Shown: positions 45,489 through 51,418 of the stretch, piece after piece | How positions within the stretch are numbered: position 1 is the stretch's first letter | Layout: each line of letters begins with the position of its first letter | Origin: Alphaproteobacteria bacterium | GTDB taxonomy: Bacteria > Pseudomonadota > Alphaproteobacteria > Ferrovibrionales > Ferrovibrionaceae | Assembly: GCA_026126215.1 (NCBI GenBank) | Contig: JAHCJQ010000001.1 | Span: 1 to 64,000, forward strand | Length of the DNA stretch: 64,000 bases | Reading direction: 5' to 3' | Made by a program: the position numbers and the translations under genes | The notes under the pieces: generated by a model | What the model was told of the DNA's origin: nothing | Seen by the model: only the letters and a program-made list of their open reading frames with translations | The model's database searches: none

Positions 45489-46394
45489 ATGAAGCAGGTT
45501 CGCCCCATGAACATCGCCGCGCGGGGCCGGGCAATCCCGCCCCTCCTCTTCCTTATGGTGCTGCTGCTTGGCGGCTGCGCCTCGGCATCGCGCGAGATCG
45601 CCGAAGGCCAGCGGCAGAGCGCCCAGGAGAATGGCGGCTACGAAGGCACGGTGCAGCCGCTCGAGCAGCCGGTCGAACTGGCCTATGGCGCGGTGGCGCC
45701 CCTAGGCTTCCGCATCGAGCTGCTGGCCGAGCGCGACGGCGGCGAATCGCTCGACAGCCTGCTCGAAGGCCGGGTCCAGATCGCCGGCGCCGGCGAGAGC
45801 CTGGAGCTCGAGGCGGACTTGCTGGTCATGGAGATCAACGGCCGCAGCTTCGCCACCCGCGGCGTGGTGCTGGGCAGCGTGCGCCAGCGCCTCGGCCCGC
45901 GCGGCCCGTCCGGCCTGGCGGAGGGCGATTTCGCCGGCCTCTCCGCCGTCGCGCGGCGCGGCGACGAGCCGGTGCTGGATCAGATCGGCGCCATGGCGCG
46001 CGAGGACATTGCCGGGCTGGCGCAACAGCGCTTCCCCGACAGGCCGCTGGCGGAGGGCGACAGGCTGGCCGGGACCGACGAGGTGCTGGCGCGCTTCAAG
46101 CTGAGCGGACCCATCGCCCGGCTGACCAGCGACAGCGATATCGGCCTTCATGTTGCCGGCCGGACGGTCTGGCAGGGCCGGCCGGCGGTCTTCGCGCGCT
46201 ATCGCGGCGGCGCCGATCTGTTCCTGCCGCAGGACCCGCCGGCGGCGGCGCGGATGGAGGTGGGCGGTTACAGCGTCATCGACCTGGCGAGCGGCATCGA
46301 GCTGGAAGGGCTGGCCAGCCTGCAGGTCAAGGGCGTGGCCGGGGCGGCCAGCGGCCTCAACGCCGTGCAGCGCTCGCGCCTGCTGGCCGAATAG
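45489..46394 (+). CDS. Predicted lipoprotein of unknown function
   Basis: A 301-residue lipoprotein with signal peptide and lipobox LLGGC; it may start instead at ATG 45507, which would give a 23-residue signal. I do not recognise the mature domain, which is acidic and beta-rich. It is divergent from the histidine kinase. Its last 20 codons and 45 downstream bases recur at 51310-51418 on the far side of the foreign island, so this gene's 3' end was the insertion point. Confidence 0.65.
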   Translation: MKQVRPMNIAARGRAIPPLLFLMVLLLGGCASASREIAEGQRQSAQENGGYEGTVQPLEQPVELAYGAVAPLGFRIELLAERDGGESLDSLLEGRVQIAGAGESLELEADLLVMEINGRSFATRGVVLGSVRQRLGPRGPSGLAEGDFAGLSAVARRGDEPVLDQIGAMAREDIAGLAQQRFPDRPLAEGDRLAGTDEVLARFKLSGPIARLTSDSDIGLHVAGRTVWQGRPAVFARYRGGADLFLPQDPPAAARMEVGGYSVIDLASGIELEGLASLQVKGVAGAASGLNAVQRSRLLAE

Positions 46395-46439
46395 CCGGCC
46401 AAGCGGCGCCCTTGCAAGTTGCCGGCGGAGGACTAGGCT
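46331..46439 (+). repeat. Island-flanking direct repeat, left copy
   Basis: 109 bases that cover the 3' end of the lipoprotein gene and the following spacer. They recur at 51310-51418. The last 93 bases are identical and the first 16 contain three mismatches, all at third codon positions that leave the protein unchanged. The two copies frame about 4.9 kb of AT-richer DNA. Confidence 0.9.
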
Positions 46440-46505
46440 CAGGACTCATTGATCAACGCGAAAAGATGACGGTTTCGGCGATGACAATTGCCGAGAAGTC
46501 TTGGG
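46437..46505 (-). mobile_element. IS5-like transposase 3'-end remnant, left
   Basis: The sequence from GCTCAGGACTCAT on, read leftward, encodes a C-terminal transposase scrap (FSAIVIAETVIF) that resembles the ends of IS5-family (IS427-type) transposases. It matches the right remnant at 51233-51310 in the same orientation, with about a dozen differences and one 1-base indel. The rest of the element is gone. The outer edge at 46440 abuts the lipoprotein repeat. Confidence 0.6.
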
Positions 46506-46526
46506 CTGACGTGAGCCTCTGATCTC

Positions 46527-46967
46527 CTAGGATTCTTCGGAGAGTCCTAGGGTTTCATTTTTGGCCTCAGGCAGGCTGTTTTCCAGCTTGGATTTCAGTG
46601 CGAACTCGGCCGGCGACATGTTGCCGAGGGCCGAATGGGGTCTGCGGTGGTTGTAGACCTCCTTCCATGAGCCGATGGCCCCGCGTGTCTCGGACAATGT
46701 CGAGAACAACATTTCATTGAGGTACTCGTTCTGAAAGCGGCCGTTGAAGCTCCACACCCGGAGCTTCTTCTGGTGGGAATTGTCGTCCTCAAGCAACCAC
46801 AACCGGCTGTCATCGGACGCCTCCATGCACCCGAATTTGCCCTTCCACCTCTAGAACGTCGCTGAGCTGATGTCGTGCTTCCGGCCGACGTCGACAATGG
46901 ACACTGCGCCCTCCTGCTCACGCAGAGTCTCGATGATCTGCTCTTCCAAAAATCGTGAACGCTTCAT
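46527..46967 (-). pseudogene. IS3-family transposase remnant (orfA-orfB fusion with nonsense codon)
   Basis: Read leftward from ATG 46967, an IS3 orfA start (MKRSRFLEEQIIETLREQEG ... ISSATF) meets a TAG where the family has tyrosine, then reads RWKGKFGCMEASD. After a few dozen more residues it jumps straight to the C-terminal integrase part of orfB (WSFNGRFQNEYLNEMLF, YNHRRPHSALGNMSPAEFA). Most of the catalytic domain is missing. The copy is dead by both a stop and a large internal deletion. The 3' end carries an imperfect hairpin at about 46526-46552. Confidence 0.8.
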
Positions 46968-47136
46968 CTTTGGCCCTTCGCCCTTGGGGTGGATGCTGTT
47001 TCATCTTGGCGGTGTTCCCGTCCCTCACGTAAATGTCACATCGTGCACACGCTAAAAATGTTATCAAAGAGACACTTAGCACCTAGGCGTTAGGCGTCTG
47101 GCTTATAGCACAACCCAAGATAAAGAGGAGGAGAAC
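46968..47136 (+). promoter_or_regulatory. Upstream region of the diiron-enzyme gene
   Basis: 169 bases between the IS3 remnant and the first cargo gene. It turns AT-rich from about 47030. A 7-base tandem repeat, TAGGCGTTAGGCGT, lies near 47084-47097, and an ideal ribosome site AGAGGAGG sits 5 bases before ATG 47137. A promoter is expected here, but I cannot fix its -35/-10 elements. Confidence 0.4.
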
Positions 47137-47898
47137 ATGTCGTTAGCTTCCACCGCCGAGAATAACGCAATAGCCGACAGCCCCACCCGCACGCGGATTT
47201 ATTCCGAGACGAGCGATACCACAAAATATATTGATGATATTTACAAAGAAATACTAAGAAGTTGTGCTGTTGAACACCCATTTCTCAATTGGTTTGCTAA
47301 CAATAAACTTAGCAAAGATCAAGAAAAGATACTATTTTCTGAATGCTATTACTGGTTCAGACACATTCCATTTTATATTTCATCAATGGCTCAACTTACA
47401 AGAGATACAAAAATATTAAAGGAGATTAGTCTGAACGTATATGATGAGGTAGGCGGTGAAAGAAGTCATGCAGAGCTTTACATGAAATTTATTAATACTA
47501 TCGGTATTTCCAAAAGAGAAGTGCAAAGATACCACCCTACTGCCCAGGTTCTGGAGCTAAATGGAAGAATGGAGAAAATTTATTCTCGGCCTCCTATCGA
47601 AAAAGCCCTCGGTGCGATGTTTTTTGACGAAACGATGTCAGGAATTATGGTTTCCAAAATAAACGAAGGATTGAAAAACGCAGGCTACTCGAAAGATATT
47701 CGCTTCTTCTGGGAGATGCACATTAATGTCGAAAATGGTCATAGCAACTCCATTTTCAACGCAATCTATCCGTATCTAAAGAATGACGCTTCGCAGGATG
47801 CTTTTGAAGACGGTGTTCAAGAACTTAGCCGACTTGTTGAGTTATTCTGGGATGCCGTCGTAAGAAAATTGAATCTTCATCACATATTGCATACCTGA
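47137..47898 (+). CDS. Haem-oxygenase-like diiron enzyme (iron-containing redox enzyme, HDO superfamily)
   Basis: A 253-residue all-helical protein. It carries the spaced ligand set of haem-oxygenase-like diiron oxidases (UndA, BesC, SznF class): E69 in LFSECYYWFRH, E108 and H111 in GGERSHAEL (ExxH), E165 in FFDETMSG, and H195/E199/H202 in EMHINVENGH. Family members use O2 for fragmentation, N-oxygenation or decarboxylation of amino or fatty acids; the substrate here is unknown. Composition is strikingly AT-rich for this genome (16 of 60 bases are G or C at 47281-47340). It heads the cargo operon and is followed directly by the radical SAM gene. Confidence 0.85.
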   Translation: MSLASTAENNAIADSPTRTRIYSETSDTTKYIDDIYKEILRSCAVEHPFLNWFANNKLSKDQEKILFSECYYWFRHIPFYISSMAQLTRDTKILKEISLNVYDEVGGERSHAELYMKFINTIGISKREVQRYHPTAQVLELNGRMEKIYSRPPIEKALGAMFFDETMSGIMVSKINEGLKNAGYSKDIRFFWEMHINVENGHSNSIFNAIYPYLKNDASQDAFEDGVQELSRLVELFWDAVVRKLNLHHILHT

Positions 47899-47936
47899 AA
47901 ATTGCTCAAATTTTTCTGCCGCCGGTAGCGAGCTTT

Positions 47937-49565
47937 GTGATGCTTGTCATCTTGTTTGCAGTTCCCGCTCCAGGACAGTGCGTCAAAGGAGAATCGAAGT
48001 TCCTTGGCACGGTTCGTACCAATATGCACAAAGCATCGCTAACGGCGCTCGCGGCAAGTTTGAGAAACATGCTGACGATCGACGGGTTAACAGATGTTCA
48101 TATCAAGATCACTGATCTCCAAACCGCTGGCAGTGAAAAAATCAGATACGGCGAACTACGTCTTGGCAGCAATGTTGTTCTTGAGAAATACAGGGTTGGC
48201 GCTGACTTTTGGCAAGCGAACCACGACATTCTGGATGCAGAAATCGTCGGCATTAGTGCCAACTATACTCATTCGAGACTCATTATTGCCGACTTCCTCC
48301 GCCATGTCCGCAATGTGAACAAAGGTGCATTGACTGTTCTAGGGGGGACCGATGCTACTGGAGATCCAGAGTACTACATGAGAATCGGGGCGGATGTGGT
48401 AGTCCGCGGTGAAGGAGAGCTTTCCTTTCATCGGCTCGTCAAGGCAAAGTTGATGGGGGAAAGTTTTGAAAGCATTCCGAATATATACTATCATGATTCA
48501 AATTCTGGAATTATACACCGTAATAAAAGCACCTTTCTTAACAGTCAGACTTCGTTTGATGTCGAGAGACTACCCGTGCCCGCCTTGGATTTGGTAGACT
48601 TGTCAAAGTATAACGATACAGGAGAGGGGAATCCTCCCTATCCCTTTATTAGAGGACCTTTCATTAGTGTCGAAACGTCGCGTGGCTGCGCGCAGGCATG
48701 TTCGTTTTGCGCGACGCCAATCGCTAAGGGTCGCTTCCGGTTCATGTCATCGGAAGCAATAGAGAGGCATCTTAAGGCGTTCTGGGCTTTTGGAGTACGG
48801 ACGCTTCTTTTCCAAGAAGACAATGTTCTGTCGCGCGTGCATCGAGCAAGAGACGGCAATTCTGTCTTCCCAGACGGACGGAAGGCGACGATCGAAATGT
48901 TTACTATGGCCTATGATATGGGGTTCAACTGGGAGTTCACAAACGGACTTGAATTCGGCCAGTTTGAACACAAGGGCGAAATCGATCATGAGTTGATAAA
49001 TGTACTTTTCCGTCATGAAATTAGTAATGGCAAGGCTCGGGGATGCTATCGCGCCACGATGCCGCTGGAAAACCTCTCCGATGAGAGTTCCAGGCTGTTC
49101 AGGAAGCTTAAGCCTCTGGGTATTGTGAGGGATATTTGCGAAGCTGTTGTTGCAAGCGGCGTTCCAGCCTTGTCCTTCAATCTAATAATTGGGCGCCCCC
49201 AAGATGATGAAAGAACGTTGGCTCTTTCTTACAAAAGATGCCAAAGCATAAAGGAAACCTGTTTGAATATTAATAAAAATATAAGTATATATTTTAATGT
49301 TTATGTCTTATCTTTGCTGCCTGGAACCGTTGATTTTAGAAATTTCAAAGATCTTCTTGCCTTTGATATTGAAAGAGATCCGGAAGTGGTCACTTTTTAC
49401 CTCGGATCACTACAGACAAGATATTTCTCTCCACTGGAAATTACCCAAGCGAGAGGCACGATGGCTACATTGCTGAACGGCCGAGCTCTTGTTGAGAATT
49501 ACGACGAAAATTATTTCCTAACAAGCCATAGGTTCGAGAGATTGTTTGGAAAATCTTATGTCTAG
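47937..49565 (+). CDS. B12-binding-domain radical SAM protein
   Basis: A 542-residue (or slightly longer) cobalamin-type radical SAM enzyme. The N-terminal 200 residues form a B12-binding Rossmann-like domain (ILDAEIVGISANYTHSR, VLGGTDATGDPEYYM, VVRGEGELSFHRL) without an obvious DxHxxG motif. The radical SAM core has C251, C255 and C258 in SRGCAQACSFC, which bind the [4Fe-4S] cluster. No SPASM domain is evident. Such enzymes methylate unactivated carbons or drive ring rearrangements. GTG 47937 is the first conventional start, but the frame continues to a CTG at 47895 that overlaps the upstream stop and adds KIAQIFLPPV, a family-like first strand. Confidence 0.85.
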   Translation: MMLVILFAVPAPGQCVKGESKFLGTVRTNMHKASLTALAASLRNMLTIDGLTDVHIKITDLQTAGSEKIRYGELRLGSNVVLEKYRVGADFWQANHDILDAEIVGISANYTHSRLIIADFLRHVRNVNKGALTVLGGTDATGDPEYYMRIGADVVVRGEGELSFHRLVKAKLMGESFESIPNIYYHDSNSGIIHRNKSTFLNSQTSFDVERLPVPALDLVDLSKYNDTGEGNPPYPFIRGPFISVETSRGCAQACSFCATPIAKGRFRFMSSEAIERHLKAFWAFGVRTLLFQEDNVLSRVHRARDGNSVFPDGRKATIEMFTMAYDMGFNWEFTNGLEFGQFEHKGEIDHELINVLFRHEISNGKARGCYRATMPLENLSDESSRLFRKLKPLGIVRDICEAVVASGVPALSFNLIIGRPQDDERTLALSYKRCQSIKETCLNINKNISIYFNVYVLSLLPGTVDFRNFKDLLAFDIERDPEVVTFYLGSLQTRYFSPLEITQARGTMATLLNGRALVENYDENYFLTSHRFERLFGKSYV

Positions 49566-49599: not shown

Positions 49600-50586
49600 A
49601 TGCAGTACCTAGGCCGCCGGAAGAGCGGAGATCTCAGTGGCATGGTTGTTGGTATTCTCGCCAGCGCACTTGCTGGCGCGCTTTGGGCGCTCACTTTCGT
49701 TGCCCCCCTTGTCGCAGCTCCCTACTCGCCTTTCGATTTGACGATCGGACGATTCCTTGTCTTCGGTCTCACCTCATTGCTGGCGCTCCTTCCAAGTCGT
49801 TTCGCTGCGCTGCGCGGCCTTTCTTGGCGGCAGTGGGCACTGCTGGGGATGTTAGGTTTTGCCGGGAACGCTGGATACTACCTGTTCATGTCCTTCGCGG
49901 TACTGCGGGTCGGACCGGCCATCGTCGCGCTGATCATTGGTTGTCTGCCGGTGATCCTGACTATTGTGGGAAATCGAGGATCGCGGCGAGTTCCTTTGAT
50001 GAGAATTGCTCCCTCGCTGATCTCTATCATCGCCAGTCTCGCCCTTGTAAACGGTGCGGCTCTTTCGCAGCCCGAAATGGCTGGAGATCTTTCATCTCTA
50101 GTCATAGGAGTAGCCTCGGCCTTTGGGGCCGTCGCTCTCTGGACCTGGTACGGCCTGAGAAACGCGCTCGCCCTATCGGAATTCTCTACACTCTCTTCAG
50201 CGCAATGGAGCCTTCTCACGGGCGTAGGAACCCTTATCTCGCTTGGCCCTTTGCTGTGCATCGGGCTCGCCGCAGGTTGGTCAGCCGTACCTGCGATTGG
50301 TTTATCGGGGCCCGAAGCGCTAGGCATTCTGCTGTGGAGCGTGCTTTTGGGCATGCTGTCCTCATGGGCGGCGACGTGGGCGTGGTCCATTGCGACACGA
50401 CATTTGTCGGTATCCTTGGCGAGCCAACTTATTGTGTTTGAGACGATCTTTACGCTGATCTACGTGATGCTCCTGGATTGGCGCTTTCTTGATTGGAAAG
50501 AAGGAGTGGGCGCTTGCCTCCTGATCGCAGGCGTTGTCATGGCGATCCGGTGTTTTTCGCAAAGCAAATCTTTCGGCGTTCCCTAG
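49600..50586 (+). CDS. EamA/DMT family transporter
   Basis: A 328-residue inner-membrane protein with about ten hydrophobic helices arranged as two EamA repeats (first: ASALAGALWALTFVAPLVA ... FMSFAVLRVGPAIVALI; second: WTWYGLRNALAL ... LIVFETIFTLIYVML). Relatives export metabolites, amino-acid derivatives and drugs. It may start at 49600 or at ATG 49642. It follows the radical SAM gene by 34 bases, so export of that pathway's product is a fair inference. Base composition is between that of the diiron gene and the backbone. Confidence 0.85.
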   Translation: MQYLGRRKSGDLSGMVVGILASALAGALWALTFVAPLVAAPYSPFDLTIGRFLVFGLTSLLALLPSRFAALRGLSWRQWALLGMLGFAGNAGYYLFMSFAVLRVGPAIVALIIGCLPVILTIVGNRGSRRVPLMRIAPSLISIIASLALVNGAALSQPEMAGDLSSLVIGVASAFGAVALWTWYGLRNALALSEFSTLSSAQWSLLTGVGTLISLGPLLCIGLAAGWSAVPAIGLSGPEALGILLWSVLLGMLSSWAATWAWSIATRHLSVSLASQLIVFETIFTLIYVMLLDWRFLDWKEGVGACLLIAGVVMAIRCFSQSKSFGVP

Positions 50587-50731: not shown

Positions 50732-51211
50732 ATGGAACGTCAGCTTGTCCATATAGAGTCGTTTCTTGTCGCCGGGGTCACAACACGAACAATAAACACG
50801 GACGAGGTCGACAGAAACACGATAGAGGTCCCGGAAACAGCCAAAATTCCCGGACTGTGGGCATCATTCCGGGAAAAGGGCCTTTCTCAGGGCTTGGCCT
50901 CCGTGATCGGCAGCGAGAGAATTTTCGCGGTCTACTCTGAGTATGAGTCGGACGATAGTGGCTTCTATGATGCGACGGTAGGAGTCCAAGTCGATACGGA
51001 AAATTTGCAAAGTCATACTGTGCGAGTTCTGAATGGATGGTACATGGTATTTAGCGGAGAAGGTCCAATGCCTCTCACCATGTACAGAATTTGGTCGGAC
51101 ATATGGGATTATTTCCGCAGTAACAGTCATGTACGAAGAAATTTCCAAACAGATTTCGAGGAGTACAGCGGATCGTGTCACGTAAGGATTTACGTAGGGG
51201 TGGAGACATAA
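50732..51211 (+). CDS. Stand-alone GyrI-like / AraC-effector-binding-domain protein
   Basis: A 159-residue single-domain protein of the GyrI-like small-molecule-binding fold. Typical marks are the N-terminal VAGVTTRTINTDE, PGLWASF, the FAVYSEYESDDSGFYDATVG strand region, GWYMVFSGEGP and DFEEYSGSCHVRIYV at the end. Stand-alone members include the integron protein Cass2, which binds cationic drugs, and GyrI. The ATG has a perfect GGAGG site 6 bases upstream. In this cassette it may bind the product for self-protection or act as a sensor; both are inferences. Confidence 0.8.
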   Translation: MERQLVHIESFLVAGVTTRTINTDEVDRNTIEVPETAKIPGLWASFREKGLSQGLASVIGSERIFAVYSEYESDDSGFYDATVGVQVDTENLQSHTVRVLNGWYMVFSGEGPMPLTMYRIWSDIWDYFRSNSHVRRNFQTDFEEYSGSCHVRIYVGVET

Positions 51212-51232: not shown

Positions 51233-51310
51233 GCTCAGGACTCATCGGTCAACGCCAAAGAGGACGGTTGCGGCGATGAGAATTGCTGACAAGAAGGTGT
51301 AGGCGCATCG
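51233..51310 (-). mobile_element. IS5-like transposase 3'-end remnant, right
   Basis: Read leftward, 51310-51250 encode RCAYTFLSAILIAATVLFG, which matches the C-terminus of IS5-family (IS427-type) transposases, followed by a stop and the end-like GACTCAT ... GAGC sequence. It pairs with the left remnant at 46437-46505 in direct orientation. It fuses at 51310 to the second copy of the lipoprotein 3' end. Confidence 0.65.
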
Positions 51311-51418
51311 GGCGTGGCGGGCGCCGCCAGCGGCCTCAACGCCGTGCAGCGCTCGCGCCTGCTGGCCGAATAGCCGGCCAAGCGGCGCCCTTGCAAGTTG
51401 CCGGCGGAGGACTAGGCT
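51310..51418 (+). repeat. Island-flanking direct repeat, right copy (truncated lipoprotein gene 3' end)
   Basis: This copy of 46331-46439 keeps the frame of the last 20 codons of the lipoprotein gene, including its stop, then continues into the native downstream sequence that leads to tctC. Its three differences from the left copy are synonymous, which suggests that it once belonged to an intact allele in another strain. Confidence 0.9.

Follow-up and report, generated by a model that had tools for sequence, protein, structure and literature searches.

In a 64,000-nucleotide stretch of an alphaproteobacterial genome (Ferrovibrionaceae; GenBank assembly GCA_026126215.1; the whole stretch is hereafter termed the window) we identify a gene coding for an HDO (heme-oxygenase-like diiron oxidase) enzyme of the BesC clade, which has as its downstream neighbor a gene for a cobalamin-binding-domain radical SAM enzyme, with no adjacent BesD-type halogenase. 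This is a BesC-clade HDO in a non-bes context; that the cobalamin radical SAM enzyme is its partner is plausible but unproven. We tentatively propose, at somewhat less than an even chance, that the low-GC island carrying both genes encodes a compact two-enzyme pathway for a free, modified and exported amino acid.

The gene pair and its low-GC island

The features of the region, in window positions, are:

46331-46439, + strand: left copy of a 109-bp direct repeat, equivalent to the 3' end of the gene at 45489-46394 (repeat search)
46437-46498, + strand: left copy of a 62-bp island-end repeat, 85% identical to the right copy and in the same orientation
46506-46968, - strand: decayed IS3-family insertion sequence beside the HDO gene (PF13683/NF033516 matches)
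47137-47898, + strand: HDO gene, BesC clade, 253 aa (Pfam PF14518/PF03070)
47940-49565, + strand: cobalamin-binding-domain radical SAM gene, 541 aa from the ATG at 47940 (PF02310, PF04055)
49600-50586, + strand: EamA/DMT-family transporter gene (PF00892, E = 3e-11)
50732-51211, + strand: gene for a Cass2/GyrI-like small-molecule-binding protein (PF14526, E = 1.8e-16; PF06445, E = 1.8e-10)
51233-51293, + strand: right copy of the 62-bp island-end repeat, 85% identical to the left copy
51310-51418, + strand: right copy of the 109-bp direct repeat, which closes the island (repeat search)

A preliminary description of this DNA had read the pair as head-to-tail genes for an HDO and a B12-binding radical SAM enzyme, and this reading is borne out: both ORFs are intact and lie on the same strand with a gap of 38 nt (47137-47898 and 47937-49565). 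Their products exceed the curated Pfam cut-offs (Haem_oxygenas_2, E = 1.7e-15; B12-binding, 7.7e-12; Radical_SAM, 4.5e-9), the HDO protein also matching TENA_THI-4 above its cut-off; hence, these genes are not chance ORFs. From the GTG at 47937 the radical SAM ORF codes for 542 aa; the alternative ATG at 47940 (541 aa) appears to be the likelier start, with which the alignment to family members is compatible. The residue numbers used below for this protein (Cys 251/255/258 and Asn109) are counted from the GTG. The EamA gene starts 34 nt past the radical SAM stop on the same strand, and the start ATG of the Cass2/GyrI-like gene was read from the sequence. By Pfam domain search, none of the four island genes codes for a carrier, ATP-grasp or adenylation protein (0/4), in line with the earlier remark that no such gene is present. 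The preliminary description was silent on the BesC kinship, the absent halogenase and the low-GC island with its flanking direct repeats.

Between 46.4 and 51.3 kb the GC content drops from about 0.70 to 0.37-0.58. The 109-bp direct repeats that flank this segment are 97% identical to each other and reproduce the terminal (3') part of the gene at 45489-46394; they are far longer than the usual target duplication of a transposon. The 62-bp repeat, which has two copies only in the source assembly and does not occur elsewhere in the assembly of a sister species, possibly represents remnants of an element's ends. In blastn searches the IS3 remnant matches IS3 copies of rhizobial plasmids over more than 1.1 kb, split into two pieces, which indicates that the element is internally deleted. 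The sister species (MAG TGS_PRO5; L006/L009) has the island at the same site, and between HDO codon 5 and the right repeat its copy is identical to that of the window, while the flanks are 94.7-97% identical. This difference suggests recent gene flow; a mixed assembly is the less likely explanation. Both genomes are fragmentary. Eight substitutions between the two genomes are concentrated within 55 bp around the HDO start (47094-47148), the rest of the island being identical. Taken as a whole, the set from the HDO to the Cass2/GyrI-like gene appears to be a small, foreign, low-GC island that moves as one block. An integron cassette origin was rejected because the island lacks attC-like core pairs; the Cass2/GyrI-like family is named for integron cassettes, yet the island has no attC site. 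A viral or phage origin was likewise rejected, as viral contigs contained no relatives of either protein.

Family placement and metal ligands of the HDO protein

The product of 47137-47898 is firmly placed as an HDO of the BesC clade. It matches PDB 7twa (apo BesC from Streptomyces cattleya) with E = 2e-69 and 237 bits, and other HDOs of known structure reach at most about 37 bits, CADD (37 bits) being next after BesC. It is 43-50% identical to S. cattleya BesC and three Frankia homologues (46-50% to BesC alone). A scan of genome contigs with two strict peptide patterns recovered the sister genome together with three loci of Frankia (44-47% identity). Phylum sweeps covered a sample of two phyla, and among 396 actinomycete genomes the Frankia BesC-clade HDOs show 46% identity versus 27% or less for all other HDOs. 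The only plasmid homologues were S. cattleya BesC and one Burkholderia HDO with 23% identity. A family tree, suggested earlier as a check, places BesC, its Frankia homologues and the window HDO in one group apart from other HDOs (support 100/99), the window HDO having a long branch and an unusual composition. Against the NCBIfam BesC model NF042919 it scores 268.6 bits, below the equivalog cut-off of 500. Its AF2 model (pLDDT 71.9, pTM 0.73) adopts a heme-oxygenase-like all-helical fold, and a Foldseek search against PDB returned four BesC chains at the top (TM 0.79 by query and 0.89 by target, rmsd 2.1 A), followed by CADD, FlcD, UndA and HrmI.

Alignment to BesC and to CADD (PDB 1rcw), whose ligands are E81, H88, E142, H174, D178 and H181, predicts E104, H111, E165, H195, E199 and H202 as the diiron ligands of the window HDO; the BesC positions were themselves transferred from CADD by alignment. 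As aligned, these residues conform to the motif published for HDO dimetal sites, E-H-E-H-(D/E)-H (PMC11363339). All six positions are intact, and a disabled HDO was rejected on this ground. The ligands listed in the preliminary description stand with respect to H111, E165, E199 and H202, whereas H195 had been left out, E69 aligns with CADD D46 at a non-ligand position, and E108 fits less well than E104. The latter is invariant and its spacing to H111 is that of CADD; hence, it is our preferred, not proven, candidate, although E108 is acidic (E or D) across the whole BesC clade. Since some other HDOs use an E/D-x2-H spacing, such as the D76-x2-H79 of AetD, which E108-x2-H111 resembles (PMC10654658), E108 may also be considered a candidate ligand. 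In the AF2 model residues 98-108 are of low confidence (below pLDDT 50).

Helices 154-181 and 189-213, which bear ligands, are the region of highest identity to BesC (72-75%): 75% for the helix carrying E165 and 72% for that carrying H195, E199 and H202, compared with about 46% over the whole protein. Close to the ligands, the window HDO departs from the BesD-linked clade at four positions, with F163 in place of A, G169 in place of S, N197 in place of D and N200 in place of V; these changes could relate to a different substituent on the substrate.

Partner genes: halogenase and cobalamin radical SAM enzyme

All four relatives of the window HDO (S. cattleya BesC and the three Frankia proteins) are either encoded directly behind a BesD lysine halogenase or have BesD in the same genome. 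In two Frankia loci (L010 and L012) HalD (PF23169; E = 1e-88 and 1e-86) is encoded immediately upstream of the HDO gene, and L012 additionally has a gene for a Cys/Met-type PLP enzyme downstream of it; in the L011 genome, too, HalD lies close to the HDO gene, and L015 holds both. In S. cattleya the gene preceding besC in the bes cluster is of the BesD type. A search with PF23169, which recovered the Frankia positive controls, found no BesD/HalD match in the source genome or the sister genome. Judging from this search, BesD is likely but not certainly absent from the source genome; the genome is 84% complete, so a BesD gene elsewhere might have been missed. In the literature collection that we searched, no paper pairs an HDO with a cobalamin radical SAM enzyme. 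The BesD-BesC gene pairs of three Frankia genomes (L010, L011 and L012) are an observation in their own right, as these organisms may possess beta-ethynylserine-like pathways.

The radical SAM protein contains PF02310 at 90-167 (45.6 bits versus a cut-off of 32.1), with the full N terminus aligning to the family, and PF04055 at 245-425. The CxxxCxxC motif is present as C251-x3-C255-x2-C258, the very cysteines named earlier. Among NCBIfam models it reaches no equivalog cut-off, the best being TIGR04013 with 70.4 of 251 bits, and it lies far below the cut-off of every methyltransferase equivalog. A profile built from generic B12 radical SAM relatives aligns with AprD4, OxsB, TsrM, CysS and TokK, and Asn109 thereby falls on OxsB Asn186, not on the Trp of TokK and CysS. 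OxsB is a non-methylating cobalamin radical SAM enzyme, in which Asn186 positions a water under the cobalt (PMC13331322); Asn109, a single residue, hints that simple methyl transfer should not be assumed. Searches of 397 other Pseudomonadota genomes recovered no relatives at E = 1e-18; those of Actinomycetota yielded only generic B12 radical SAM relatives as partial matches (24-35% identity). Plasmid matches reach at most about 31% over parts, and the nearest generic relatives show 20-30% identity over part of the protein. An AF2 model made from the single sequence was unusable (pLDDT 34.5). The source genome encodes CobS (cobalamin synthase), which makes cobalamin assembly plausible.

Proposed pathway, alternatives and known systems

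BesD chlorinates free L-lysine at C4 (PMC10187165; PMC13108848), and BesC, which fragments both 4-Cl-lysine and plain lysine, acts like BesD on free amino acids (PMC10187165); a peroxodiiron(III) species is the putative agent by which BesC removes the C4 hydrogen (PMC10187165; PMC13108848). Given this use of free lysine derivatives and the membership of the window HDO in the BesC clade, we favor a free-amino-acid pathway, which supports the earlier preference for a free amino acid over a tethered substrate. By homology to BesC, we have moderate confidence that the window HDO would convert a substrate of the lysine type into an allylglycine-type (2-amino-4-pentenoate) product, formaldehyde and ammonia: with O2 it would form a peroxodiiron(III) species, which would take a hydrogen from C4, and the terminal CH2NH2 would be expelled as the two small products. 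With weaker confidence, the cobalamin radical SAM enzyme would stand in for BesD, the tailoring enzyme of the beta-ethynylserine pathway; in the simplest case it would modify an unactivated lysine carbon ahead of cleavage, or else the cleavage product afterwards, and the EamA protein would export the product. The Cass2/GyrI-like protein might bind the product or its mimic, as a possible sensor or sequestering protein.

The direct basis of this proposal is the family, the clade, the ligands by alignment, the fold, the gene order and the absence of BesD from the assembly; from these we infer which substrate is used, in what order the steps run, what the radical SAM enzyme catalyses, and how the EamA and Cass2/GyrI-like proteins contribute. 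We likewise infer a joint function of the HDO and radical SAM enzymes from their adjacency in one independent locus, the sister block being near-identical, as recovered by the pattern scan and the two-phylum sample; as the patterns were strict and two phyla were sampled, other such pairs may exist. In a more specific version of the proposed pathway, which we consider decidedly unlikely as stated, the radical SAM enzyme would methylate free L-lysine at C4, the site chlorinated by BesD, and the HDO would cleave the resulting 4-methyl-lysine to 2-amino-4-methyl-4-pentenoate, which is methallylglycine or 4,5-dehydroleucine. Such a route would parallel the bes pathway, with methyl in place of chloro. 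In 1948 Dittmer et al. reportedly described both allylglycine and methallylglycine as microbial growth inhibitors (reference 37 in PMC11568248).

The HDO might instead act first, converting L-lysine to L-allylglycine, with the radical SAM enzyme then modifying allylglycine, for example by C-methylation or ring formation. BesC itself fragments plain L-lysine (PMC10187165), the HDO gene leads the operon, and the OxsB residue matched by Asn109 belongs to a non-methylating enzyme (PMC13331322). However, tailoring precedes cleavage in the bes pathway, the sequence of enzymatic steps cannot be read from the order of the genes, and a single aligned residue is not enough to assign a reaction; we regard this order of events as doubtful.

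It is unlikely that the two genes are unrelated cargo of a mobile island, the HDO alone supplying allylglycine as an antimetabolite and the radical SAM enzyme having some other job. The decayed IS3 and the direct repeats do mark a mobile region, the pattern scan and the genome samples of two phyla revealed the pair at no further locus, and GC3 is unequal between the genes (0.40, 0.47 and 0.61), so they may have different origins, a point that also counts against the two-enzyme pathway. Yet the genes share one strand with gaps of 38 and 34 nt, both ORFs of the pair are intact, and terminator-like sites are not above the shuffled background. It is very improbable that the BesC kinship misleads and that the HDO has switched to desaturation, N-oxygenation or ring formation, acting on another amino acid: the score of 268.6 bits, far under the BesC cut-off of 500 and a further point against the two-enzyme pathway, the near-ligand changes at 163, 169, 197 and 200, and the varied HDO reactions of PolF and MboA (PMC12614342, PMC13185094) would all fit it, but the ligand helices are 72-75% identical to BesC and the clade has 100/99 support.

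If the two-enzyme pathway is correct and the pair works together, a radical SAM enzyme would take over from the halogenase in preparing the substrate for BesC-type fragmentation, and the bes pathway would prove to be exchangeable at its C4 tailoring step. Amino acids of the allylglycine type, useful chemical handles and growth inhibitors, would then be accessible by a short route.

Among known systems, the radical SAM protein shares an N-terminal B12-binding domain and a CxxxCxxC radical SAM core with OxsB, TokK, CysS, TsrM and TIGR04013, and an Asn at the Asn186 position with OxsB, while remaining under every curated equivalog cut-off. The HDO shares its fold and the E-x6-H ... E ... H-x3-D/E-x2-H spacing with CADD, the self-sacrificing p-aminobenzoate synthase that cleaves its own tyrosine, but differs from it in clade and chemistry (about 16-20% identity). 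As in the Frankia BesD-BesC pairs (L010, L011 and L012), a BesC-clade HDO is found in a short amino-acid cluster; the HalD gene (PF23169) directly upstream and the downstream PLP enzyme gene of L012 have no counterpart in the island. The closest counterpart is BesC itself (4-chloro-allylglycine synthase, S. cattleya, PDB 7twa), with which the window protein shares the HDO fold, the six aligned ligands, 46-50% identity and, likely, free amino acid chemistry; BesC follows the BesD halogenase in the bes cluster, whereas the window HDO is accompanied, in place of a halogenase, by a cobalamin radical SAM gene, and its score is below the BesC equivalog cut-off.
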